DNA from: Halovenus carboxidivorans
GTDB taxonomy: Archaea; Halobacteriota; Halobacteria; Halobacteriales; Haloarculaceae
Direction: 5' to 3'
Length of the DNA: 64,000 nt
Assembly (NCBI RefSeq): GCF_009831575.1
Contig: NZ_WUUT01000002.1
Location: forward strand, 372,001 to 436,000
Part shown: one piece after another, positions 10,323-27,009 of the stretch
How the letters are laid out: each line of letters opens with the position of its first letter
Numbering within the stretch: the first letter of the stretch is position 1
The notes under the pieces: generated by a model
What the model was told of the DNA's origin: nothing
The model's database searches: none
Seen by the model: the letters and a program-made list of their open reading frames with translations, nothing else
Program-made: the position numbers and the translations under genes

Positions 10323-10397
10323 GCTCCGGTGGTGTAGTCCGGCCAATCATATTGCCCTCTCGAGGCGATGACCTGGGTTCGAATCCCAGCCGGAGCA
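10323..10397 (+). tRNA. trnE: tRNA-Glu (anticodon CTC)
   Basis: A 75-nt cloverleaf without intron. The acceptor stem is GCTCCGG (10323-10329) with CCGGAGC (10390-10396), and A is the discriminator base. The D-arm begins TGGTGTAGTCCGGCC. The anticodon stem TTGCC/GGCGA encloses the loop CTCTCGA, giving anticodon CTC, which reads GAG. The T-arm is CTGGG-TTCGAAT-CCCAG. CCA is not encoded. A TTAAAC box at 10288-10293 lies about 35 nt upstream. GAG is the dominant Glu codon in this GC-rich genome. Confidence 0.97.
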
Positions 10398-10558: not shown

Positions 10559-13500
10559 ATGGGGGCGGGAGTAGCAGATGGTCGGACAGACGAGAAACAG
10601 ACATACGGTGACGGCACAGCGACGGAACGCGACGGTGTGGCGCACAGCAGACGCCAGTTGGTTCTTCTCGCGCTGTTCGCGCTCGGACTGGTTCTGGTCG
10701 GGGCGCCGACGGACGGCGCCGCAGCGTCGAACAACGTTACCGATCCGACGCTCGTGTACGTGCAGGAATCGTCGGGCAACCTCACAATCGTCGACAGCGA
10801 AGGGACGAAAGTCTACACTGGAGTCAGCCACGACACCTCGAACAGTCACTACATCAAGTCAATCGGACCGTCGGTGGACTACGACGGCGACGGAACGCTC
10901 GAAGTCCCGTACACGAAACAGGACGGGACGAACGGGCCGCACTGCGGATCGTCGACGTCGAAACCGGGAACGTGACGACGCTCGTTCAGGATACCTACGA
11001 CAAGAAAAGCAAGCTTGCGATCGGGAACTTCGATCAGGACAGCCACCCGGATCTGTTCTACGTCACGCCGAACAACGGGGTCGGGCGGGTGGACAACGAC
11101 ACCACTCCGACGGAGGTAATCGTCAGTGACAGCGACAGCACCGACGCGAAACCGAAGGCGTATCTGGGCGTCGTCGACGCCACTGGGGACGGGATTCGTG
11201 ACGTGATCTGGTACGACGACAGCAGTGCGATCAAGTACATCAACTACAGCGTTCCGGACGATATCAAGAAACTCACCCTCGATACGACGCCGGGATCGAA
11301 CAAGAACACCGGTGTCGGCGAGCCGCGGGATTTCAACGGCGACGGAGAGGTTCGGGTGCCGATCATCGACGGCTCGAAGAATCCGCAGGTGCTCGACCCC
11401 GACGGACCGAACGACCTGCAGTTGGCCGACGACGGCCCGGCGTACAAGACGACCGTCGGGACGGCGGACGTCGTCAACGACTCGCAGGCAGAACTGCTCT
11501 TCGTCAAAGACTCCTCGACGGAGATTTACTACATCGAGACAGACCAGGAACTCGACGCGCCGTACGACATCCTCTCGATCAACGGCAACACGTACGACGC
11601 GGACGCCAGTCTCGGCGGTCTCGCGTCGGGAGAGACGACGGTCACACAGCGGTTCGAGGGGCTCGATTCGACGAGTCCGGCGATCTCCGACGGCTCGGTG
11701 CCGGCGGACAACGGCTACGTCGAGGTGAGTTTCAGCGAAGGGGTCTACGCGAACAGCGACGGAACTGGCGGGCTGACCGCCAGCGACTTCACCGCGACGT
11801 TCGCCCGGAACGGTGGTTCCGCGACCGGCGTGAGCATCGACAGCGTGACCAACACGAGCGGGCAGAGTCCGTCCGGGGGCGAGAAGACGCTTCGCCTGCA
11901 GATCAGCGTGAGCGACGCCCCCGCCTCCGGCGACGAAACTGTCGAAATCCAGCCCGCCGACGGGAGTTCGATCTACGACAACGCCGGCAACGCGATGACC
12001 GACACCGAGTCGACTGGACCACTCTCACTGTCGGACCGTCGGAGTCCCGCGTACACGAGCGGCCCATCGACAGAGAACGTCAGCACGAACGGCTTCGATA
12101 TCACTCTCACCGCCGACGAAAACGGCACGGGCTACTACGTCGTCCTTCCCGACGGTGCGGCCGAGCCGTCTGTCAGCGACGTGAAAAACGGGCAGGACGG
12201 CAGCGGTACCACCGCGGCGGACAGCGGCAATGCCAGCATCGCTGCGGGGACGACAGAGAGCTTCTCTGCCTCGGGGCTGAGCGAAGACACCGCATACGAC
12301 GTGTACGTCGTCGCCGAGGACACGAACGGTAACGCGAACAAATCCACGAGAGTCGATCAGTCGACGGCGGATACGACCGCACCGAACTACACCACCGGCC
12401 CGTCGACGGGCAACGCCGGCGGCAGTGGCTTCGACATCGATCTGACCGTCGACGAAAACGGCACGGGCTACTACGTCGTCCTCCCCGACGGCGCGACCGA
12501 ACCGACCCCCACAGATATCAAAAACGGTCAGGACGGCGACGGGAACACCGCCGCGGACGACGGTAACAAGTCACTCACTGCGGGCACGGGAGAGACGCTC
12601 ACGGCGTCCGGGCTGAGCGAGGACACCGCATACGACGCGTTCGTCCTCGCGGAGGACACGAGCGGCAACGCCAATAAATCGGCTCGACTCGATCAGTCGA
12701 CGACCGACATCACCGCGCCGGGCTACATGAGCGGCCCGTCGACAGGGAACGTCGGGACCAACGGCTTCGATATCAACTTCACCGCGAACGAAAGTGGAAC
12801 CGGCTACTACGTCGTCCTCCCCGACGGCGCGAGCGAACCGTCCGTCAGCGACGTGAAAGCCGGACAGGACGGGGACGGAAACGCCGCATCGGACAGCGGT
12901 AGCGCGAGCATCAGCGCAGACACCAAGCAGACCGTCTCTGCCTCGGGGCTGAGCGAGGACACCGCCTACGACGTGTACGTCGTTGCTGAAGACGCCAGCG
13001 GCAACGCCAACAAGTCCGCAAAGGTCGATCAGTCGACGGCAGATACGACCGCGTCCTCGTTCGGTAGCGGACCGTCCACGGCCAACGTCGGCGCCGACGG
13101 ATTCGACATCGAGTTCACGACAGACGAGAACGGCACGGGCCACTACGTCGTCGTCGGAGACGGCTCCCCGGCCCCGTCGGCGAGTCAGATCGAGAACGGC
13201 AACAACGCCTCGGGCGCGCCCGCCCGCAAGAGCGGGAGAGGCGGGGTCACCGGCGGAACCACCACCAGCCTCCGGGCCGCAGGCCTGAGCGAGTACACCG
13301 CCTACGACGTGTACGTCCTCGTCGAGGACGACAGCGGCAACGCTCGCGCCGCCGGACCGGTCGACGAGGTGACCGACCCCGCGGGCGTGACGTTCCCGGT
13401 CGACGCGGCGTTCGACGGCTCTGATCCGGCGGGCTGGCTGCTCGACAGGCGGGCGAGTTCCGGAGTCGAAGTCGGTGGCGAGAGCGAACCGGCGGCCCGG

Positions 13501-16500
13501 TTGACCGAGGCGAGCGGCGACCAGCAGGGGACCGCGCTGTACGAGCGCTCGCTGCCGACGGATAACGGGCTCACGACCGAGTTCCGGTACTACAGCGACG
13601 GCGGCGACGGCGGCGACGGGCTGTCGGTGATGTTGTTGAATGCCTCGAACGTCGACACGGACCGGTTCGGGGCCGGCGCCGGCGGCGACGGTCTCGGATA
13701 CACCGGTAGCGACAGCACGGCCGGAGTCCCCGGCGGGTTCGTCGGCGTCGGCTTCGACGAGTCCGGGGCGTTTACCGCCGAGGATAGCTGTGTCGTCGGC
13801 GGGACATCGAGCGCACAGCCAGGTGTGACCGTCCGCGGTGCCGGCGACGAGGCGCCGACCGACAGAGCCTGTGACGGCAGCGGCGACGAAGGCTATCCGT
13901 TCCTCGACACCACCGCGGCGAGCGAACTCTCCGGCGATATCGACGGCGGCTGGCGCCGAGTCCGACTCACGCTCGATCCCACGGTCGGCGGGTCGACGGA
14001 CGTTGGTCTGCGTGTCGAGATGAGCTTCGACGGCGGCAGTAGCTGGGAGACGGTCCTGAACACCAGCTACGCCGAATCGACGGTCGGAGCGCCGGTTCCG
14101 GACCGCGTCTCGCTCGCGCTCTCGGGGACGACGAGCACCGCGACGAACGTCCACGCGGTCGACGAGCTATCGGTCGGGACGCCGACGAACGCCACCGTCG
14201 AGACGACGAGTTCGCCCGCTGACGGACCGTACAAGGCCGGCGAGACGGTCTCCTACGACTTCGAGGTGACCAACGGCGGTCCGAACGCCGGCAACGTGAC
14301 CCTCTCGCCGACGGTGTCAGTCGGACCGTCCGGATTCGAGCAGGTCGACTGGGACACCGACGACGACGGCAGTTTCGAGGTACTCGGGTCGGAGAACGCG
14401 ACGGTATCGGTTCCGAGCGGCGCAACGAAATCGATCACGCTCCGGGGGACCGTCGACAGCGCGGCGAGGGGAACGCTTGACCACCGGGTCGAAGCGACGG
14501 CCGAGACGGGCCACATCGATCCGAACCCGTCGACAGCGAAGGACTCGGTCGCGGTGTCGATTCAGGACGCGCCCACGATGAGCGACGACGAGCGCTCACT
14601 GGCGCCCGTCGACGAGGATGCGACCGACCCCAACGGCACGACAGTCTCGACAGTCCTCGACTCAGCCGGAACGGCGAGCGATCCGGAAGGGGACGCCCTC
14701 GGCGTGGCAGTCGTCGGTGTCGACGACACTGGCGGTCAGTGGGAGTACTCGACGGACGGCGGGTCGACCTGGACCGCGGTCAGTGACGCCGCCCCGGACG
14801 GCGAGAGCGCGCTGTTGCTGGCTGGAGACGACCTGATCCGGTTGGTGCCGGACGCCGACGTGTCGGGAGCAATCGCCGGAAACGTGACGATTCGCGCCTG
14901 GGACCGGTACGGCGGATCGGCGGGAACGACGACCGCCGATACCGTCCCGAACGGGGGATCGACCGGATACTCACAGACGACCGGAACCGTCGGAGTGACC
15001 GTCCGGGACGCCCCGGAAGTCGCCACGATCAGCCGCGAGACCGAGAGCCCGACGAACGCCAGTTCCGTCGCCTTCGAGGTGACGTTCAGCCAATCAGTCT
15101 CCGGAGTCGACGCCGGGGATTTCGCCGCGACACAGAACAGCGGCGGCGTGTCCGGATCGGTCGCGGAGGTCAACACCAGCACCGGGACGGCCGTCACGGT
15201 GACCGTCGGTAACGTTAGCGGCGACGGGGAACTGAGTCTGGAACTGCTCGACGACGACAGCATCACCGACTCGACCGGGGTTCCACTCGGTGGGGTCGGA
15301 ACCAGCGGAAGCGGTGACGGGAGTTCCACCGGGGGCGAGAGCCTCCAGATCGACAACACCGCGCCGGAACTCGCCAGCGTTTCACGAGTCGACGCGACGA
15401 CGCTCGACCTGTCGTCGTCCGACGGCGTAGACATAGACGAGTCCACCGTCACCGCGGCAGACCTCTCGACGGACAACGGGTCGATCAGTTCCGTCTCGGT
15501 CGCGGAGAACGGGACAGACGCGAACGCGACTGTCGAGTTGGAAGCGCCCGTCGATGCGGAGACGGTCACGGTCTCACTGGCCGGGACAATCGCTGATCTC
15601 GGCGGGAACAGCGTCGACACCGGAGCGGTGACCGCAACGGAGATGGACGGGGCCGGACCGACACTCGTCGATGTCAGCAAGGTCAACTTCACGACCCTCT
15701 CGGTGACTCTCGCCGAGAACGGAAGCGGCATCGACGCCGGAACGATCGAACAGGCGGATTTCAGCGCCGACAACGGCACAATCGACAGTATCGACGCGAC
15801 GAACGTGACAGACGGCTCGACCGGCGAGCAGACGCTCACGCTCACGCTCGCGGAGGCGGTCGAGACGGAGACAGTGACAGTCTCCGTCCAGAGCGGCAAC
15901 GGCGGGATTGCAGACGTGGCGGGCAACGCCCGGACCGCCGGGGAGGGGACCGCCACGGGGATGGACCCGCTCGATCCGGCGGCGTTCGTCGAGGGGGCGA
16001 TCACCGATCAGAGTCCCGACAAGATCGAGGTGACCTTCGACAAGTCGGTCTCGGTCACGGCGGGGGCCGACGGATTCGCCGCCGCGATCGAGGGGATCGA
16101 ACGGGACATCGAGGCCGTCGATCCCGGCGCGAACGAGACGACGGTCGTGGTCACGCTGTCGGATACGACCGTCTCCGCCGGTGAGAACGTCTCCGTGCAG
16201 TACGACGGAGCCAGCGGTAACCTCCGCAACGCCGACGGCATCGGGACGGAGACGTTCTCGATCAGCACCGACGAGACGGACGGATTCTCGAACGACGTCG
16301 AGCCAGATGTCGGTGCCCTGACCGTCGACATCGACGAAGGGAGTAGCACGTTGAGCGCCACAGAGGGCGGAACCATCAGCGTCGATGCCCCCGTCACGAA
16401 CACGGGCGACGCCGAGTTAGCCCAGACAGTCGAGGCCGAAATCGCGGGCGCTGTGCGGGACAGCGAGACGGTGACGGTCGGAGGTGGCGAGAGCCGGACA

Positions 16501-19500
16501 GTCACGCTCTCGTTCACCGCAGAGGCGTCTCTCGACGGCGAGTCAGTGACGGTCAGCACGGCCAACGAGTCGGCGTCGACGACAGTCAGCGTCGCGGAAG
16601 CGCCCGAGGGGGCCTTCTTCGGGGTGACCGTGGACTCGATCAGCCGGGAGGTGACCGCGGGCGAGTCCGTCCAGGCGACTGTCACGGTCGAAAACACGGG
16701 CGACCAGCAGGCGACGAAGGCTATCGAGTTACTCGACGACGAGGGTGCGGTCGTCGACAGCCAGTCCGTAACCCTCGCCGGCGGCAGTACCGAGACGGTC
16801 TCGGTGAGGTGGGCGACGAACACGGAGGGTGTCGGAACGGCAACGCTCGCGATCCGGACGCCGGACGATCAGACGACGGCCACGGTCGCCGTCGAGTCGC
16901 CGGCACCGGAGATTTCGGCGTTCGAGATGAACGGTTCCGAGTCGGGCGAACTCACTCTCACAGTCGAGAGCGACCGGCCGCTGGAAGAACTCGACGTTAC
17001 GGTCTCCGGGCCGTCGGAGACGACGCTGGCGACGGAGGCGTCCGACGAACAGGCCAGCGGCGAGGGCTACACGTACACCGCGACGACGACGGTGACGGCG
17101 GCGGGCACCTACGAGGCCACGCTCGAAACGGCCCGAGACGCCGAGGGAACGGACGGCGCGTCCGGGCAGTCGGCGACTGTGCGCTTCGACGACGAGGTGG
17201 CGGCGGTCGCGACCGCTGACAGCTACGTCGTCAGCGTGAACGCGTCGGTCGGTCTCCGGGCGACGGAATCGACGGTATCGACCGACTCGGCGACCTACGA
17301 GTGGCGGGTCGACGGCGACGTGATCGGAACCGGCGAAACGACGACCGTCTCGTGGCCGACGCCGGGAGAACGGAACGTGACTCTCGTCGTCGCCGCGGGC
17401 GGGAAGACGGACACAGCGACGGTCTCGGTGACCGTCGAGGACGAGACCGATCCCGTCGCCCGATTGACCGCCCCCGAGACGGTCGAGTTCGGCACCGGAG
17501 CGGTCTTCGACGCGTCGAACGCGACCGACAACGTCGGGATCGACCGCTACGAGTGGGTCTTCGGTGACGGGAGGACCGCATCGGGGCCGGATCTCGTCCG
17601 CCCGGCCCACAGCTACAACGCGACCGGCGAGTACACCGTCGAACTGACCGTCGTCGACGCCAGCGGTGGGTCGACGACGACGAGCGCGCAGGTCTCCGTC
17701 GAGGGAGCGGACGTGACGGTCTCCGACAGCGGGCTCGAGTTCGGAGCGGTTTCGACCGGTTCCGAACGGACCGAGACAGTGACGCTCACGAACAACGGAA
17801 CCGAGCCGTTCGTCGCCGAGAACGTGTCCGTCGCCGGTCCCGGGAGCGGTCCGTTCACCGCGGCGGAGGAGGTCCGCGTCAACCCCGGCGAGCGCCGGCT
17901 CCTTCCGGTGACGTTCGAGCCCGAGACGCCCGGCGAGCGGTCCGCGACTCTCGAACTCGGGGAGGTCGGCTCGCTCCCGCTGACGGCCACGGGGATCGAA
18001 GGCACACTCACCCCCGAAACGGGTAGTGCCGGATTCGGTTCCGTCCCCGTCGGTGAGACCGCCGAGACCACGGTCGCCGTCCGCAACGACGGCACCGAAC
18101 CGGTCGCTACCGAGGAAGTCACAGCGACCGGCGAACAGTTCACCGCGACCGGCGGACCGGAACGGATCGCACCGGGCGAGCGGGGAACGGTCACCGTCGA
18201 GTTCACGCCGACCGCACCCGGCGAGGCGAGCGCCACCCTGACGGTCGCAGGCGGAGAGACGCGGGCGAGTCTCAGCCTCGCAGGGACCGGGGCGGGGCCG
18301 AAACTCTCGGTCGTGCAGTCGGCGGTGCAGTTCGGCACAGTCGGCGTGGACCAGCGTAGGCAGCGAACTCTCGAACTCGCAAACTACGGGACCGAGCCGC
18401 TCGGAATCGACGAGATAGCTACCAACGGGACGGCCTTCGAGGTGGTCGACGCTCCGGAAACGATCAGTGCCGGTGAGCGGGCGACCGTCGATATCGCCTT
18501 CTCGCCTGCGGAAGCAGGCGAGTACGAGGACAGCCTGCGAGTCCGGAGCAACGCCACGGGCGGTCCCGCGACGGCGGGCGTCTCCGGAACTGGGGTCGCG
18601 CCGAAGATCAGCCTCGACCGCCGGACGCTGGACTTCGGGAACGTCTCCGTCGGCGAGCGAAAGCTACTGGAGTTGGTCGTGACGAACAAGGCCAGTTCCA
18701 GAGCGCCGCTGTCCGTCACGAGAACGGAGATCGTGGGTGAGAATCCGGACGCCTTCGAGATTGTCGGCGGCGACGCCGAGTACAGCCTCGCACCCGGAGA
18801 GAACCGGACGATCACCGTCGCGTTCGAGCCACAGAGCACCGGGGTCAAGGAGGGACAACTCCAGATCAAAAGCACCGCGGCCAACCAGCCGCTGATAAAC
18901 GTCTGGCTCTCGAACACGCGAACGTACATCGTGGTTCAGGAGGTCGACGCCGTCGACGGGGGCTCGACCGAGAGCGAGACGGAGCCGACCGACTTCGAGA
19001 CGCGCTCGACGGAGCCGGTGACGATCAACGTCGACGGTGAGAACGCCGACGAGGGAAGCGAGTTCGTCGTCAATACGTCGACGCCGTCGGTCAGCGCGCG
19101 CCGCGCCGGCGTCGACAAACTCGATTACGAGCTCCAGCGAGCGGGTGGCTTCGAGCTGAACATCAATCACTCACAGCGTCCGCACGGGCCGACCTTCGAG
19201 GATCCGGGCAAAGCGGTCGCGGAGTACATCGAGATCGAACACGTAGAGGGCGATCCCGACTCGACGTACACTGACCCCGGGATGCAGTTCCGCGTCAGCA
19301 AGTCCGAACTGCCCGACGGTGCCGGTCCGGATGCTCCGACGCTGTACCGCTGGAACGAGAGTACCGAACAGTGGGTCGATATGAGCGACTCGACGACGCC
19401 CGTCGGAGAGACCGACGGCCACTACCGCTACCGGACGGATCTACCCGGCTTCTCGCAGTTCGCCGTGACCGTGCCGACGGCGACCGATCCCGTCCTCGAG

Positions 19501-19944
19501 ATCCAGCGGCTGTCCGCCCCCGAGTCGGTCGAAGCGGGCGAGGAGTTCTCTGTCGACGCGGAGATCCAGAATACCGGCGGGACCGGCGAGGGGACTGTCG
19601 AGTTGACTGTCGGCGGCGAGACCGTCACCACGGCCACGGTGACGCTGGACGCCGGCGGAACTGAGACTGTGACACTGCGATATCAGCCCGAGACGGGCGA
19701 CGGTCAAGTCACGCTCACGGCTACGACCGGGTCCGACGAGGCGTCGGCCACGACCGAAATCCGAGCCGCGGAGTCACCGCCACAGACCGAGAACTCCGGT
19801 GACGACTGTGAACTGCTCGGGCTGAACTTCGGTTCGTTCATCGTCTGCTGGTACTGGTGGGTGCTGCTGATCGCGGTCGGCATCGTCAGTGGCGCGTTTG
19901 TCTGGCGGCGGACGGGCGACGACTCCTCGCGGACGCACTACTGA
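10559..19944 (+). CDS. giant multi-domain surface adhesin-like protein with apparent frameshift near residue 126
   Basis: Two overlapping frames together encode about 3,128 residues. The first (10559-10975) holds a signal peptide (RRQLVLLALFALGLVLVGAP, ~31-50) and the start of an FG-GAP/VCBS-like region. The second is open to 19944. The protein sense passes from one frame to the other at GGGCC, 10934-10938 (DGTNG then AALRIVDVETG), as if one G were missing. Then come four 112-residue repeats (~502-945), a concanavalin/L-type lectin-like domain (~950-1208), DUF11-like and cadherin/Ig-like units, CARDB-like and PKD domains (~2300-2383), four choice-of-anchor-D-like repeats (~2385-2780), a PGF-pre-PGF-like domain, another CARDB unit and a C-terminal membrane helix (~3094-3118). 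It is likely exported, glycosylated and membrane-anchored. The role in adhesion or ligand binding is inferred. Confidence 0.8.
12061..13404 (+). repeat. four tandem 336-bp coding repeats
   Basis: Units start at 12061, 12397, 12733 and 13069, each exactly 336 nt (112 residues) apart. Each begins GPST-x-N, continues GFDI...T-x-(D/N)E-(N/S)-GTG(Y/H)YVV, and ends with a fibronectin-like segment (GLSE(D/Y)TAYD-(V/A)-(Y/F)V then SGNA or NGNA). The first three are very similar; the fourth has diverged. The exact period with no indels points to recent tandem duplication inside the surface-protein gene. Confidence 0.92.
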
Positions 19945-20033: not shown

Positions 20034-21860
20034 TCACCCTGCTGATACACCGCCGACGCCACGGGCGCCCCGCGGGTCGGCGCCCGACCACGGGCCAGCG
20101 TCGGCGCTCGATAACGCCGGCATCTGGGCGGCAGCCGTCTGGTAACTATCGACCTGTACCGTCGCGTTGACTCCCGTCGGGCGGTGCGTGGCCGTGACCG
20201 TGAGCGACTCTGCCGGGTTGACGCCCACACCGGAGAGCGTCGACTCGTTCACGGTCGCGGAGAAGCCAGCGGTGGTGGTCTCTACCGTCGTGTTGTACTC
20301 TGTGGACCCGGGATCGGTCACGACGATATCGACCGTCTCGTTGGCCGAACTGGTCCCGTTTCTCGTCACGTTGCCCGTCATGGATAGCTCCTGTTGGTCG
20401 CCGGCGTCGTTCCACTCGGCGTCGAGATTGACGCCGATCTCGTCTCTACCGGCCGTTCCCTCGGTCGAGTCCGAACCGTCGGTGGAGTCGGAGCTATCAG
20501 TACCGGTCGAGTCCGACGTACTGTTCGTCGCATCCGATCCCTCGCCGGTCTCGCTGTCCTGTTCCGGTCCGGGGCCCGGATACGCCAGACGCTGGTTGAA
20601 TCCGGACTCCAGATGTTCGAGTTCGATGTCGAACTCCTCAGTGATCGTAACATCCTCGGCAATCTCCGAACTCGGAATGCGTTGCTCGAAGGTGCCGTTC
20701 GCGTCGGTGGTGAACTGCTCGGAGAAGTTGCCTGTCGAGGAGTTGATCACCAGTTGCAGCCCCGCATCGGCCATCGGCTCCCCGTTTTCCGTGAGCGTGC
20801 CGTTGACGGCGAGATCGGTGCTGCTGCCGTTTGCCACCCAGTCGGCGGTTACGTTGGTCATCGCCAGGTCACCGAATCCGGTGCCGGTGTCGCCGCCGTC
20901 GGAGAGAAAGCCCGGAAGTCCGAACAGGCCGAGGACGTACGCGGCGGCGACGGCAATCGCGAGAATCGCGACGACAGCCCCGCCAGCGGCGAGCAGTTTG
21001 AGCCGGTTTCCGTCGTCGTCGCTACTGAGTGCCTTCTGTCGCTGTCTGCGGATCTGTTCGATCCGATCCTGATAGGTCTGGTAGGCCTGACCTGTCTCTC
21101 CGAGCAACTCCAGGCCGACGTACGAACCGGTCTCGATGACGACGTCGTACTCGTCCAGCGCGTTGCTGGACGGATTTTCCGCGACGACGAAGCCGCTCAC
21201 GTCCGTGCTCAGATACTGTGCCACGTTCAGCGCGGCTTCGGGGTTCCCGACCCCGAGGCGGGCCTGGTCGAGAGTTGGCGGGTCGGCCGCCTCTTTCGGA
21301 CTCTGGGAGAAGGCGCCACCGCTGGACTCCGAGAACGGGTCGAGAGCGTCCCCCGAGTTTCCGTACCGGTCGGTCGATCCCGAGTCGAGCGGGTCACCGT
21401 GCCGTCCGTACGACCCCCCGGAACTGAACTCGTCTCCGTCACCGAACTCGGAGGCGCCGCCGGTGAGCATCTCGACAACGTCGTCGAGTTTGTTCGTTTC
21501 GGGGGGGTTCCCCGAGGGGTCTCGATCCCCGATGACGTACCGGAAGAGTTCGGTATCGTCGGTCGAAGTGTCGAAGGAGAGGCCGTACTCGTCCTCGATG
21601 CGCCGTCGCAACGCGGTCGGGAACGCCTCGAACGCCTCTCGCTGTGAGGTCTGCGAGCGGTAGACGGCGTAGTACTGCTCGGATCGAGCGGCGCTCGACT
21701 CCCTGGCTCGGAAGAAACAGATGATCTCGTAGCTCCCACCAGTCTGCGTCCCAGCCAGTCTGACGCCGTCGAAAAACAGGTCCTTGATTCGCTGGCTCTG
21801 CGTTCCGCTGTCCGCGCGGATGCCGTCGCCCTGGGAGTCGTAGATGGTGAGGTCAGCCAT
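20034..21860 (-). CDS. single-pass membrane protein with external Ig-like domains, third gene of FtsZ-like operon
   Basis: A 608-residue protein I do not recognise as a named family. Residues 1-285 lack a signal peptide and look cytosolic, with a Gly/Ser/Asp-rich low-complexity stretch at ~135-195. One strong membrane helix spans ~288-318. The outer part (~325-608) has two beta-rich domains resembling carboxypeptidase-regulatory or Ig folds (NGTLTENGEPMADAG; GNVTRNGTSSANETV), many N-x-S/T sequons, and a Ser/Thr/Asp-rich linker between them (~430-475). Its start lies 2 nt after the stop of the GTPase gene, so translation is probably coupled. It could link an internal FtsZ-like/GTPase assembly to the cell surface; that role is inferred from layout only. 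Confidence 0.8.
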   Translation of the reverse strand: MADLTIYDSQGDGIRADSGTQSQRIKDLFFDGVRLAGTQTGGSYEIICFFRARESSAARSEQYYAVYRSQTSQREAFEAFPTALRRRIEDEYGLSFDTSTDDTELFRYVIGDRDPSGNPPETNKLDDVVEMLTGGASEFGDGDEFSSGGSYGRHGDPLDSGSTDRYGNSGDALDPFSESSGGAFSQSPKEAADPPTLDQARLGVGNPEAALNVAQYLSTDVSGFVVAENPSSNALDEYDVVIETGSYVGLELLGETGQAYQTYQDRIEQIRRQRQKALSSDDDGNRLKLLAAGGAVVAILAIAVAAAYVLGLFGLPGFLSDGGDTGTGFGDLAMTNVTADWVANGSSTDLAVNGTLTENGEPMADAGLQLVINSSTGNFSEQFTTDANGTFEQRIPSSEIAEDVTITEEFDIELEHLESGFNQRLAYPGPGPEQDSETGEGSDATNSTSDSTGTDSSDSTDGSDSTEGTAGRDEIGVNLDAEWNDAGDQQELSMTGNVTRNGTSSANETVDIVVTDPGSTEYNTTVETTTAGFSATVNESTLSGVGVNPAESLTVTATHRPTGVNATVQVDSYQTAAAQMPALSSADAGPWSGADPRGARGVGGVSAG

Positions 21861-21862
21861 GT

Positions 21863-23329
21863 TTAGAGTCGCCCTAGTTTATCGAGTAGTTCGTCGAAGC
21901 CGACAGTCATCACCGTGCCAGTGTCGTCGCGCATCGGCACCCGGTTGCCGTCGTCGTCGACTTTCGTCTGGTAGTAGACGGGATGGATGTCCTGGTTCGT
22001 CTCCGCGACCAGTGCCTCGATGTTCTCGTTCTGGCGGAGCCGCCTGTTGACGAACTCCGTGAACTCCTCGTAATCGAGGTGGGCTTCGAGCCCTCGCTCC
22101 GACTCGAACTCGTCGAGCAACACGTCGGCTTTCGTCGCGACGAGCAGGATATCCTTGCCGTCGACGGCCTGCAGGATGCTGAAATACTCCGAGATATCGA
22201 GCGGTTCGTCCCTGGCGTACCGGCTCATATCGATCGTGAGCACCAGCGTGTCCGAGTCTTCGATCCCCTCGACGAGCCGCCGTTCCGTGTTGTCGAGTTC
22301 CTCCCACTCCTTCGCTCCCGTCAGCGCGTCCGGCAACCGGCTGAGATACTCGCCGGCGTAATCCAGCGCGGAGAGGCGGATGTTCTTCGGGAACACGGAG
22401 CCGTGAACGTACTGGAAACTCAGTTCGTTCACCTGCCCCGGCGGCGTCGCCTCGACGATCCAGTCGGTCTCCTTGCGGTCGAGCGCCTCCAGAATGCTCA
22501 TCAGATCCTGACTCGGCTCCAGCGGAATGTTCTTATCAGACGAGCGGACGCGTTCGAGCGCTTCGAGATACGCGCCGATGAGAAACAGGCTCTTCCCGGA
22601 CGCTCGCGGACCGAGGATGAAAAACTCCCTGTCGGCGTCGTACTCCACGAACCGTTTCGCCGTCGCGATGAACACCACGGAGGCCCCGAGATGCAACGGC
22701 AGGTCAGCGGTGTTGATGCCGAAGCCGTTGTTGACGATCTGAGGCTGGAACGGTGTGTCGGCGTCGATGTAGATGCCGGGGTACTGCAAGTGGACCTCGA
22801 CGAAACAGACGACGACCAGTCCGGCCATGACGAAAAACAGCGCACGGGAGGCCCGCCGGAACTCGACTGTCTCGCCCTCGAACAGGTCGATCACCTGGCG
22901 TCCACCGCCGAACAGAAAGCCGACGACGACGCCACCGACCAGCGCCGGTCCCTGCTCGGCAACGTTCAGTTGGGGCAACAACAGCCCGAACGACTGGAGT
23001 CCGACCAACGCGATGACGGTACCGATCCAGAGCAGCGCGGCCTGCCACCGTTTTTTCGGATCGATCGTCATCAATACCAACAGACCGAGAAAGAGCCCCA
23101 GTCCCGCGGCGGTTACGGTCTGATGCGAGGAGCTGAGAACGGGTCCGAAGACCGCAAACCGGAGAAAGCGGATGATCGCGTTCGGAATCCCACGGCCCGT
23201 CAGCGTCGCCTGCCAGGCGTCGGCGAACATGCCGGACATCGGCCACGCCAGCGCGAGGATGAGGGCGAAGTAACCGACGAGGGTGAGCTTCTCCTTGTTG
23301 TCCCGCAGATACTGGATCGCGTTACTCAT
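21863..23329 (-). CDS. polytopic membrane protein with C-terminal P-loop GTPase domain
   Basis: A 488-residue protein with about five hydrophobic helices (~17-36, 74-90, 100-120, 128-141, 162-182), then a cytosolic P-loop domain. G1/Walker A is GPRASGKS (240-247), a G3-like motif is DYAGEYL (323-329), and G4-like TKAD is at 399-402, after TLVLTIDMSR and DILLVATK strands. The TKAD motif argues for GTP rather than ATP. It sits between an FtsZ/tubulin-like gene (62-nt gap) and a membrane protein gene (2-nt gap). Makarova and Koonin described an FtsZ-like family linked with 'a distinct GTPase' and membrane proteins; this gene fits that partner role. A membrane-tethered switch controlling the FtsZ-like protein is my inference. 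Confidence 0.82.
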   Translation of the reverse strand: MSNAIQYLRDNKEKLTLVGYFALILALAWPMSGMFADAWQATLTGRGIPNAIIRFLRFAVFGPVLSSSHQTVTAAGLGLFLGLLVLMTIDPKKRWQAALLWIGTVIALVGLQSFGLLLPQLNVAEQGPALVGGVVVGFLFGGGRQVIDLFEGETVEFRRASRALFFVMAGLVVVCFVEVHLQYPGIYIDADTPFQPQIVNNGFGINTADLPLHLGASVVFIATAKRFVEYDADREFFILGPRASGKSLFLIGAYLEALERVRSSDKNIPLEPSQDLMSILEALDRKETDWIVEATPPGQVNELSFQYVHGSVFPKNIRLSALDYAGEYLSRLPDALTGAKEWEELDNTERRLVEGIEDSDTLVLTIDMSRYARDEPLDISEYFSILQAVDGKDILLVATKADVLLDEFESERGLEAHLDYEEFTEFVNRRLRQNENIEALVAETNQDIHPVYYQTKVDDDGNRVPMRDDTGTVMTVGFDELLDKLGRL

Positions 23330-23391
23330 AGCTGACTCCTCTCGGGTCGACAGTAGAGCGTTAGTTGATACATCGTAATCCTGCTGAGAGA

Positions 23392-26300
23392 TTAGTTGTC
23401 GCCCACTTCGACGGTCTCGACGTAGTTGTTCAGTAGGTCGTCGACGATTTCGTCCTGATCGCGGAGGTAGAAGGCCACGTCGTCGTCAGTTTCCAGGTTG
23501 AGCAGATCCTTCCGCCGGACGTAGATCCCGTCTTCGAGGCCGTAGCTGTGGTGGATGCGGAGGTCGCCGTTTTCCTCCTCGTATTTCTGCTCGTAGCCGG
23601 CGTAGTAGCCGTCGGCCTGGACGACTTTCCTGATGTTGTCGAGGAAGACGCCGGTGATGAACACTGAGAGACCGATATCCCACGGGCCGCCGCTGTCCTG
23701 GGGCCAACTCGTGAACGGGCTCTCGACGCGCTTGCCGCTCGCGCCGAGGTCGAACGCGTCGCGGAACGTATCCTCGAAGTCGAGGGCGTCCGAATCGATC
23801 TGGTCGACGGCGGGACTGGAGACCGCGACTCGAACCTTGAGATCGCTGTACCGCGAGGTCCCCTTGTCCAGTTTCCGTCGGAGCAGACCCGTGTACTGCT
23901 CGCGGCGGGCGTTCTGTGCCAACTCTTCGAGGTTGCTGCGGAGGCGCTGGTTCTCCTCCTCGCTGCTGAACAGGTCGCTCTCCGCGATGTCGTCCCGGCC
24001 GGTCGCCCGGAAGATGTCGTTCGGCTGGACGTTTTTGAGATAGACGTAATCGTCGCTCTGTGCGACGCTACCCCGGTCGGTGTTGTCGGTCTGTTCGGCG
24101 AGTTTCTTCTGGAAGGAACTGGTCTTCTGCTCCCAGTTCTCCCGGCGGTTGTTCACCTCCTGGAAGAGGTCGATTGCCGGGCCGTACACCTCCATCTCGG
24201 TTTCCATCTCGTCGAGGTCGGCCTGGAGGTCGTCCCGACGCTGTTCGAGCTGGTCGGTCTCGCCGATGTCACGCCGGATCACGGACCGACCGATCTCGCG
24301 GATCCGGTCGATATCCGGCTCTGGCGAGCCGAGTTCGGTCTCCAGCGATTCCTGTTCGTCGGGCGGAATCTCCTCGACCTGCGAGCGGAGCCGGTCGATT
24401 GCCGTCTCTCGGAGCCGCTGTTCTTTCCGCCGGCACTGATCGAGGATCACCTCCGTATCGAAGGTGATATCGACGTTGAAGTTGCCCGTCGGCGGCCCGA
24501 CCTGGAAGACGCCGCTCTCGGCGAGGTTGTTCTTCTGGATGCGGTAGTCCTTGTTGGCCTCCTCGCGGCGCTCCTCGGTGTCGCTCTTCCAGGGGGTGAT
24601 CGATTCGAGAGTGCCCTCCTCCTGGTTCATCGTCAGGAAGGCTTTCTTCGCTCGCTTGAGATCAGTCAGCGAGCCGGAGACCGCGCGGAGGTGGTCGTCG
24701 GCCGCGACGCCGCCGGCGTCCAGCGCCTCGCCCAGTCGGTCGATCTGCTCCAGGACGAGATTATCCCGCGCCTGATCGACTTCCTGGTGGGACGCCGCGT
24801 TGACGACATCCCCGACGAACCGGTCCATCGCTCCCATCAGATCGGACAGGATCGCCTGGATCTGGTCGGTGTCCAGCCGCTGGAGCTGTTCGAGATCCGC
24901 CTCCACCTCGCGCATCCACTCGGAGGTCTGGCGTTCGATCTCCGCGGACTGTTCGTCGCGTTTCTCCTCGAGTCGCTGTGTGACATCTTCGAGGTCTGCG
25001 GTCAGTTCGTCGTACGTGTCCTCGATGTCCTCGTATTTCGCCTCCAGCCGCTGGAGCTTGACACCCGGTGCGGCGGTCGCGTCACCGATGCCCATCAGGT
25101 ACTCGACGGCGTCGCGGATCCGGTTGTGCTCGATTGCCTGGCGGCGCTGGAGCAGTTCCTTCCGCCGGACGATCATCGTCAGGTCCTGTTCGAGAATCTC
25201 CGCGAGCCGTTCGTCGATGTTGTCGACGAACGTCCCCGTCTCCTGGCTCGTGGCGTCGACCGCCCGGAGCGAGCCGGAGATGATGTCGATCTGTTCGACC
25301 ACGTCGTCGGTCTCGCTTTTGGCGTCGGCGATGATGTCCTCGAAGATTCCGAGCGAGTGGTACTCCAGTTCGTCGAATAGCTCGAAATCGAGCCAGGATT
25401 CTACGTCTTCGAGCCGCTCTTTGAGGTCGGTCTCGTCCAGATCACGCAGGCCGCCGTCGAGGTCGGCGCTGTCGGGGTCGTAATGTCGCGTGAGGAACCG
25501 GTCGATACGGTTGTAGATCTCCGCCTCGTGCTGGAGCGCCTCGTCTTTCTCCGTGAGCACCTCGCGGAACTGCCCGCGGGAGTCGTTGATCGCCTCGACG
25601 TTGTACCGGAGCACCTGTGGAATCCCGATCGTAAAGGGCGCGAACGACGGGGTGTCCGCGAACGGGTCCTCCAGCCCCTCGGTGTTGTAATACGCCGTCA
25701 ACAGGTAGAGGATCGCCTCGTCGAGTTCCTCGAGCAGTTTGTCCGACTGCAGCCGGTTGCCGATCTTTCCGTCGAAATCGGTCGGGTCGATCGGGATCAG
25801 AATCCGGTCTTTGAACACGTTGTTGCCCGACAGCGCGTCGTACTCGAGTTCGGACAGCGCCGCGAAGGCGTTGGTGTTCTCTTTGATGCCTTCGGTGTGG
25901 TTCGGAAGGATACCGAACAGCGTGATCTCTGCGGTTCGCTGTCGTTCCTGGAGGTGTTGTGCGAGATCGAGGAGGATGCCCGATCCCGTGCCGCCACCGA
26001 GACCCGCGATGATCGCCACCTTGCCCTTCTGTGAGAGATCGATGTACGAGGAGATCTGGTCGTCCTCGGCGTAGGCCTTGTAGTAGATGGCTTTGCCGAG
26101 CCCGCGTTTCCGGACGACCCCTTTCGCGAAGTCCAGGTTCTCGTTGATGTGCTCCTCTTCGATCCACCAGTTGTCCTCGTCCATCCCGTTTCCGGCGGCG
26201 ATTCTGGGGACTGCGTCGTCGCCGATGAGGTCGATACTGCCGCTCAGATGGATATCCTCGGTGATAAGCTTGTACTCGACCTCGATAGTTCCGGTCCGGC

Positions 26301-26538
26301 CCTTCGACGGATCGCGTAGCTCCTCTTCTTTCTCCTGGATCCGCTGTCGAATCTCGTGAATCCGTTCCTGATCGGTGTTCTTCTCACCCTCCGCCGTGTC
26401 GATGATCGTGACGGTGAGCGACGAGGGGTCCGGACGCGGCTCGAGAAGGTCCTCAAGTATCCACTCCGCCTCGAGTAATTCCAGTGCAATCGCTTTCCCC
26501 GCACCGCCCACTGCAAAGATTTTGTCGGGAAGATTCAT
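23392..26538 (-). CDS. large FtsZ/tubulin-superfamily protein with coiled-coil region
   Basis: A 1,048-residue protein. The N-terminus KIFAVGGAGKAIALELL is a glycine-rich nucleotide-binding turn. AIIAGLGGGTGSGILLDLAQHL contains the tubulin/FtsZ signature GGGTGSG (181-187), followed by NTNAFAALSELEYDA (~221-235), equivalent to the FtsZ helix contacting the base. After ~400 residues the chain becomes heptad-rich and charged (~440-620 and ~720-840), then ends in a globular C-terminal part. Classical haloarchaeal FtsZ1/FtsZ2 and CetZ are about 350-400 residues without coiled coils, so this is a different branch, closest in concept to the FtsZ-like families of Makarova and Koonin. It heads a three-gene operon with GTPase and membrane partners. 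Confidence 0.88.
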   Translation of the reverse strand: MNLPDKIFAVGGAGKAIALELLEAEWILEDLLEPRPDPSSLTVTIIDTAEGEKNTDQERIHEIRQRIQEKEEELRDPSKGRTGTIEVEYKLITEDIHLSGSIDLIGDDAVPRIAAGNGMDEDNWWIEEEHINENLDFAKGVVRKRGLGKAIYYKAYAEDDQISSYIDLSQKGKVAIIAGLGGGTGSGILLDLAQHLQERQRTAEITLFGILPNHTEGIKENTNAFAALSELEYDALSGNNVFKDRILIPIDPTDFDGKIGNRLQSDKLLEELDEAILYLLTAYYNTEGLEDPFADTPSFAPFTIGIPQVLRYNVEAINDSRGQFREVLTEKDEALQHEAEIYNRIDRFLTRHYDPDSADLDGGLRDLDETDLKERLEDVESWLDFELFDELEYHSLGIFEDIIADAKSETDDVVEQIDIISGSLRAVDATSQETGTFVDNIDERLAEILEQDLTMIVRRKELLQRRQAIEHNRIRDAVEYLMGIGDATAAPGVKLQRLEAKYEDIEDTYDELTADLEDVTQRLEEKRDEQSAEIERQTSEWMREVEADLEQLQRLDTDQIQAILSDLMGAMDRFVGDVVNAASHQEVDQARDNLVLEQIDRLGEALDAGGVAADDHLRAVSGSLTDLKRAKKAFLTMNQEEGTLESITPWKSDTEERREEANKDYRIQKNNLAESGVFQVGPPTGNFNVDITFDTEVILDQCRRKEQRLRETAIDRLRSQVEEIPPDEQESLETELGSPEPDIDRIREIGRSVIRRDIGETDQLEQRRDDLQADLDEMETEMEVYGPAIDLFQEVNNRRENWEQKTSSFQKKLAEQTDNTDRGSVAQSDDYVYLKNVQPNDIFRATGRDDIAESDLFSSEEENQRLRSNLEELAQNARREQYTGLLRRKLDKGTSRYSDLKVRVAVSSPAVDQIDSDALDFEDTFRDAFDLGASGKRVESPFTSWPQDSGGPWDIGLSVFITGVFLDNIRKVVQADGYYAGYEQKYEEENGDLRIHHSYGLEDGIYVRRKDLLNLETDDDVAFYLRDQDEIVDDLLNNYVETVEVGDN

Positions 26539-26901: not shown

Positions 26902-27009
26902 TCACTGGATCGAGAGGGGCCGGCCGCAGTCGGGACAGTGCTCGGTGACAATCGTGACCTCGGCGTCGCAGTCCGGACAGTACTCCCGGTAACAGGCTGT
27001 ATCGCCCAT
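26902..27009 (-). CDS. 35-residue double CPxC zinc-ribbon microprotein
   Basis: The minus-strand ATG at 27007-27009 opens a 35-residue frame starting MGDTACYREYC and containing two CPDC knuckles (residues 11-14 and 25-28), a complete four-Cys zinc ribbon, and then a TGA stop. A CTTTTTTG box (plus-strand 27033-27040) lies exactly one leaderless-promoter distance upstream. Small zinc-finger proteins with paired CPxC(G) motifs are a recognised group in haloarchaea. Function is unknown. It lies upstream of the FtsZ-like operon but has its own promoter and a ~360-nt gap, so co-transcription is not implied. Confidence 0.75.
   Translation of the reverse strand: MGDTACYREYCPDCDAEVTIVTEHCPDCGRPLSIQ

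Follow-up and report, generated by a model that had tools for sequence, protein, structure and literature searches.

A locus in the haloarchaeon Halovenus carboxidivorans raises the question of what a very large tubulin relative, a membrane GTPase and a single-pass membrane protein do together, and whether they form a machine that reaches from the cytosol to the cell surface. The window analysed here (a stretch of 64,000 nucleotides of contig NZ_WUUT01000002.1) had been said, in a preliminary description made from the sequence, to carry a three-gene operon at 20034-26538 behind one promoter. All three open reading frames lie there and point in the same direction, the order on the minus strand being FtsZl1, GTPase and third protein, separated by 62 and 2 nt:

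23392-26538, minus strand: FtsZ/tubulin-like protein of the FtsZl1 family (Tubulin_2), 1048 aa (Pfam, AlphaFold, Foldseek)
21863-23329, minus strand: membrane GTPase, 488 aa, with an N-terminal transmembrane (TM) bundle and a C-terminal P-loop GTPase domain
20034-21860, minus strand: third component, a single-pass membrane protein, 608 aa
26578-26583, minus strand: TATA-box-like TTATAA, candidate promoter, 40 nt before the first ATG (read directly)

A conserved and co-inherited operon

The trio is a real operon that is conserved in many archaea, and because its order and orientation are seen again in dozens of genomes, the arrangement is not due to chance. Control by a single promoter, as had been claimed, is plausible only, with the TTATAA element as its candidate. 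The order FtsZl1-GTPase-third protein is conserved across loci, with gaps mostly of -4 to +7 nt. Among 391 Halobacteria genomes, FtsZl1 occurs in 46, the GTPase in 55 and the third protein in 49; the GTPase is present in every one of the 46 FtsZl1 genomes as against 9 of the 345 others (Fisher p=3e-51), the third protein accompanies FtsZl1 in 44 of 46, and 48 of the 49 genomes with a third protein also encode the GTPase. Co-occurrence in other genomes, on which the idea of a functional trio had been staked, is therefore borne out. Pairwise distances among the three proteins also correlate (r=0.98, 0.93 and 0.91; none of 2000 permutations reached these values), a correlation that partly reflects shared host ancestry.

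Four genomes (G109, G205, G333 and G397, of which three have a completeness rating of 99%) encode the GTPase and the third protein but lack FtsZl1, both at the locus and elsewhere. Loci of this two-gene kind are L110, L111, L112 and L113. In Methanosarcinales and other methanogens, a short signal-peptide protein is followed by FtsZl1, a membrane GTPase and a single-pass protein; the N-terminus of the latter is like that of the third protein by motif, and the profile match is clear for L043, L050 and L197 and weak or absent for most. Fragments of FtsZl1 were seen in L030 (G105:C31) and at G249:C11, and as both genomes also hold an intact copy, these are probably decayed second copies.

The surroundings of the trio vary. 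Pfam recognises kinase-like genes near the trio at L024, L025, L026 and L115, and no kinase or vWA gene was recognised beside the window trio among the portion of window genes scanned. On the Haloplanus rubicundus plasmid pCBA1112-01 (L169), genes for vWA, Hsp70, GrpE, FtsZl1, two GTPase-family proteins and a PQQ beta-propeller protein are clustered. In the window, a convergent gene ends 89 nt beyond the 3' end of the operon (10972-19944, plus strand) and encodes a 2,990-aa surface protein that has PKD domains, CARDB domains, Ig repeats of the HYDIN/ASH type and a TM helix at its C-terminus. A tRNA-Glu gene (10323-10397, plus strand) lies shortly upstream of that gene and may mark an island boundary; the gene that flanks it is one with many paralogues. 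Just upstream of the operon, a 35-codon open reading frame (26902-27009, minus strand) with two CPxC pairs (MGDTACYREYCPDCDAEVTIVTEHCPDCGRPLSIQ) could encode a zinc-ribbon-like microprotein.

Architecture of the three proteins

The first protein is a member of the FtsZl1 family (Pfam Tubulin_2) and has its architecture, an N-terminal FtsZ-like domain, an extended coiled coil and a C-terminal domain in about 1050 aa:

25978-25998, minus strand: T4 GTP-binding loop GGGTGSG, residues 181-187; glycines identical in all 47 homologues
25654-25686, minus strand: candidate T7-like stretch N285-TEGL-EDPFAD295, after the long helix 262-284 in the model (putative assignment)
24877-25068, minus strand: first long helix of the predicted coiled-coil arm, residues 491-554 (AlphaFold secondary structure)
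24070-24255, minus strand: second long helix of the predicted coiled-coil arm, residues 762-823 (AlphaFold secondary structure)
23407-24039, minus strand: conserved C-terminal alpha/beta domain, residues 834-1044, with invariant D967, Y982, G1004 and R1009 (AlphaFold, alignment)

The earlier claim of a 1,048-residue tubulin/FtsZ relative with a GGGTGSG motif thus holds, both in the motif and in Pfam matches to Tubulin_2 (PF13809, E=5e-11) and Tubulin (PF00091, 3e-9) that exceed the curated cut-off. The AlphaFold model, built with 47 sequences, has a mean pLDDT of 86.8, and Foldseek matched it with probability 1.00 to TubZ, CetZ2, FtsZ and tubulins (best E 6e-6), with a TM score of up to 0.51 on the length of CetZ2 and alignments of about 310-370 columns, consistent with the N-terminal third; together they confirm the tubulin/FtsZ fold. 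Pfam finds no FtsZ_C or Tubulin_C match in the window protein. In the T7-like stretch, N, E and F are invariant and D is kept in 24 of 26 members of the close group, and distant members are without this conservation. The family as a whole shows no clear conservation of the T7 catalytic loop, so that any filaments may have different dynamics or none, a point likewise noted by Makarova and Koonin (PMC2875224). The source genome has separate FtsZ/CetZ-sized genes elsewhere, which are weakly similar to FtsZl1. PADLOC matches of the arm to ZorA were weak coiled-coil matches and were rejected as low-complexity.

The GTPase motifs of the preliminary description are all present and conserved:

22589-22612, minus strand: P-loop GPRASGKS, residues 240-247
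22349-22363, minus strand: Walker B / switch motif DYAGE, residues 323-327
22124-22135, minus strand: guanine-specificity motif TKAD, residues 399-402

The five membrane helices ascribed to this protein are a reasonable count, a simple hydropathy scan giving four in the window copy and mostly four to six in homologues. The window GTPase has no Pfam GTPase family match, and a DO-GTPase2 search of the source genome did not detect it, leaving it below the PF19993 cut-off of 27 bits, so that its link to DO-GTPase2 comes from relatives. Among these, DO-GTPase2 is the commonest Pfam match (7 of 15 aligned haloarchaeal members), the best haloarchaeal value being 0.0085 and partly due to the P-loop alone; a Methanoperedens relative matches at 1.1e-5, and other methanogen relatives reach 7.3e-6 (26.3 bits). 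The best scores among all relatives are 26.3 and 25.6 bits against the cut-off of 27. The glutamate of DYAGE, a Walker B feature of DO-GTPase2, is E in 11 of the 15 aligned members. Judged from these sequence comparisons, the GTPase is probably a distant, sub-threshold relative of DO-GTPase2 and not a member. In diverged haloarchaeal loci (L033, L035, L036, L132, L134, L137, L138, L044 and L047), a GTPase paralogue without a P-loop adjoins FtsZl1, and most of these loci also hold an intact paralogue nearby, forming a pseudo-GTPase/GTPase pair. Phage records gave no match to the GTPase.

The third protein crosses the membrane once, as proposed, with about 294 residues inside and 295 outside:

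20979-21860, minus strand: conserved cytosolic domain, residues 1-294 (alignment of 39 homologues; AlphaFold)
20922-20978, minus strand: TM helix, residues 295-313 (hydropathy scan)
20037-20921, minus strand: ectodomain, residues 314-608 (295 residues), with 13 N-X-S/T sequons

These sequons agree with the glycosylatable ectodomain that had been described, although its Ig-like nature is a weak call (DUF6795 at 5.8e-5, below cut-off); ectodomains of homologues match CarboxypepD_reg, CARDB or PEGA in some cases (Pfam). The inner domain carries the motifs IYDSxG and FFRARExxxRxEQxYAxY in the 39 homologues, and residues 1-310 are modelled by AlphaFold with pLDDT 84.3. A Foldseek search of this domain against solved structures returned nothing at E<=0.001; among its weak matches are sensor domains of the PAS type and GTPase regulators of the longin type, and the order of strands and helices in the model resembles a longin domain, a likeness that may serve as a lead only. 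By hydropathy scan, the outer part ranges across homologues from 18 to >400 residues, with >800 in one, and since it measures just 18-59 residues in L127, L043, L050 and L131, great length is no requirement for the ectodomain. The third protein of L033, found by profile, carries PQQ repeats; the start of the PQQ beta-propeller protein of the Haloplanus plasmid locus resembles the inner domain by eye, and the profile gave no confirmation of that resemblance.

Inner and outer parts of the third protein change at very different rates. In close pairs of loci, the ectodomain is 38-78% identical as against 95-98% for FtsZl1: L143 and L144 share 95% of FtsZl1, 86% of the inner domain and 38% of the outer part, and L028 and L141 share 96%, 97% and 55%, respectively. 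For pairs with unsaturated dS, dN/dS is 0.38-0.63 in the outer part, 0.10-0.21 in the inner domain and 0.07-0.13 in FtsZl1. Flanking orthologues in the same pairs are mostly 76-97% identical, a lipoprotein-like one included, with one L143/L144 membrane protein at 68%, which places the outer part among the fastest sequences there and not as the sole fast one. An ectodomain dN/dS below 1 would fit relaxed constraint as well as diversifying selection.

What the module may do

A trans-envelope machine, as the preliminary description proposed, can fairly be inferred from topology and co-inheritance. We consider a module with an outside-in receptor, a membrane switch and a tubulin-like polymer to be the best fit, and hold this with middling confidence. 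Its computed basis is the tubulin fold, the GTPase motifs, the topology, the co-inheritance of the trio, the pair lacking FtsZl1 and the concentration of change in the ectodomain; the contacts, polymerisation, direction of signalling and biological output are what we infer. The third protein would be the receptor: outside the cell its variable part would meet some target, and inside, its conserved domain would contact the membrane GTPase. The GTPase would act as a nucleotide switch held in the membrane, and its state would control the assembly or membrane attachment of FtsZl1, a tubulin relative that carries a long coiled-coil arm and would bind GTP. The output might be local reshaping or an envelope response to a surface cue. 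We also offer tentatively a broader version, which we think possible though improbable: receptor and switch would make up a core of general use in archaea, in which the diversifying ectodomain of the third protein does the sensing, the GTPase is the switch, and the tubulin-like polymer is one output that could be swapped for others. Signals would then pass from the outside inwards, from a hypervariable receptor at the surface to a polymer of the tubulin family.

The same observations could be read otherwise, membrane remodelling and a conflict role being the serious alternatives. A machine for membrane remodelling or vesicle formation, with an FtsZl1 polymer that bends the membrane, a GTPase that times the event and a third protein that anchors it to the envelope, is possible but on the whole unlikely. 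Tubulin-fold relatives usually work at membranes or in partition, two of the three products are membrane proteins, and this is the role that Makarova and Koonin put forward for FtsZl1 from gene context (PMC2875224). Yet one of that paper's reviewers had doubts about it at the time and proposed transport or signalling, the fast-changing ectodomain and the GTPase-third protein pair without FtsZl1 suggest sensing over pure mechanics, and no ESCRT or dynamin-type partner was found among the neighbours scanned. A surface or envelope cue might also come from a virus or a rival cell and trigger assembly of a tubulin-like effector, making the set a conflict or immune-like system and an archaeal cousin of the systems that combine DO-GTPases with tubulin, vWA and Hsp70. 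The sub-threshold relationship of the GTPase to DO-GTPase2 with its conserved Walker B glutamate (PMC7159879), the gene content of the Haloplanus plasmid locus, the patchy distribution of FtsZl1 and the fast ectodomain all speak for such a role, which we nonetheless judge quite unlikely: Pfam finds no GAP1 partner in third proteins or scanned neighbours, PADLOC offers nothing beyond the coiled-coil matches to the arm, no defence genes were recognised within the window, and inheritance is vertical, with fixed flanks, inside clades (L028/L029/L141/L148).

It is also conceivable, though very improbable, that the genes are merely co-transcribed and that FtsZl1 alone forms a plasmid- or chromosome-positioning filament like TubZ. 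TubZ is indeed the closest fold match and some FtsZl1 copies are on plasmids, but the GTPase accompanies FtsZl1 in all 46 genomes that have it, many copies, that of the window included, lie in large contigs that look chromosomal, and the conserved set is without a DNA-binding partner.

Few branches of the tubulin superfamily have diverged as far as FtsZl1. A fast ectodomain joined to a conserved inner domain provides a concrete and falsifiable idea of sensing outside the cell. Haloarchaea are genetically tractable, and together with the compact three-gene form this makes the question posed in 2010, of polymerisation, membrane site and trigger, directly testable.

Relation to known systems

FtsZl1 has the tubulin/FtsZ fold and the GGGTGSG loop in common with haloarchaeal CetZ and FtsZ, and differs from them in its 1048 aa, its coiled-coil arm and its own C-terminal domain. 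TubZ/RepX offers the closest solved fold (4ei7, E=6e-6); unlike it, FtsZl1 is without plasmid-partition partners and has instead a fixed membrane GTPase and a receptor-like partner.

Huta_2051 of Halorhabdus utahensis is the founding member of the family, which was recognised by computational analysis in 2010; the Huta_2051 locus also holds three kinase and three hypothetical genes (Makarova and Koonin; PMC2875224). The FtsZl1 homologue of H. utahensis in our set (G018), which is Huta_2051 or a close equivalent, is 59% identical to the window protein over residues 1-1043; its gene is likewise the first of the trio, and kinase-like genes lie on both sides. The link to this family that had been suggested is secured by Pfam Tubulin_2, the tubulin fold and this identity; the accompanying statement that such sets are not characterised in haloarchaea needs correction, as the founding member is itself haloarchaeal and the set is therefore not new to the group, though it stands as regards experiment, our literature search having found no experimental study of FtsZl1. 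As far as the founding member is described in the parts of that paper cited here, it is like the window protein in family, length (1051 against 1048 aa), architecture, GTPase partner and a locus of three hypothetical genes. It is unlike in the Ser/Thr kinase genes that flank it, none being recognised beside the window trio among the genes scanned. Those parts of the text are also without the variable ectodomain and conserved inner domain of the third protein, the DO-GTPase2 link and the loci lacking FtsZl1. New in the present analysis are the co-inheritance across genomes, the recurrence of the order in methanogens, the FtsZl1-less pair, the contrast between inner and outer parts of the third protein, the relation to DO-GTPase2, the P-loop-less GTPase copies and the Haloplanus locus.

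Systems in which a DO-GTPase goes together with tubulin-family proteins, vWA, Hsp70 and GrpE have been described, chiefly from bacteria, and a role in conflict has been proposed for them (Kaur et al., 2020; PMC7159879). The trio resembles those of the GAP1-N2 type in its TRAFAC-like GTPase with a Walker B glutamate and N-terminal TM helices, in its coiled-coil tubulin-domain protein and in membrane proteins with beta-sandwich outer domains, and the diverged haloarchaeal locus adds vWA, Hsp70 and GrpE. It differs in that no GAP1 was found by Pfam in third proteins or scanned neighbours, in a GTPase that scores under the DO-GTPase2 cut-off, and in its archaeal origin, the descriptions of those systems being mainly from bacteria. 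With its vWA, Hsp70, GrpE, FtsZl1 and two proteins of the GTPase family, the Haloplanus plasmid locus joins the FtsZl1 and DO-GTPase descriptions on the archaeal side.
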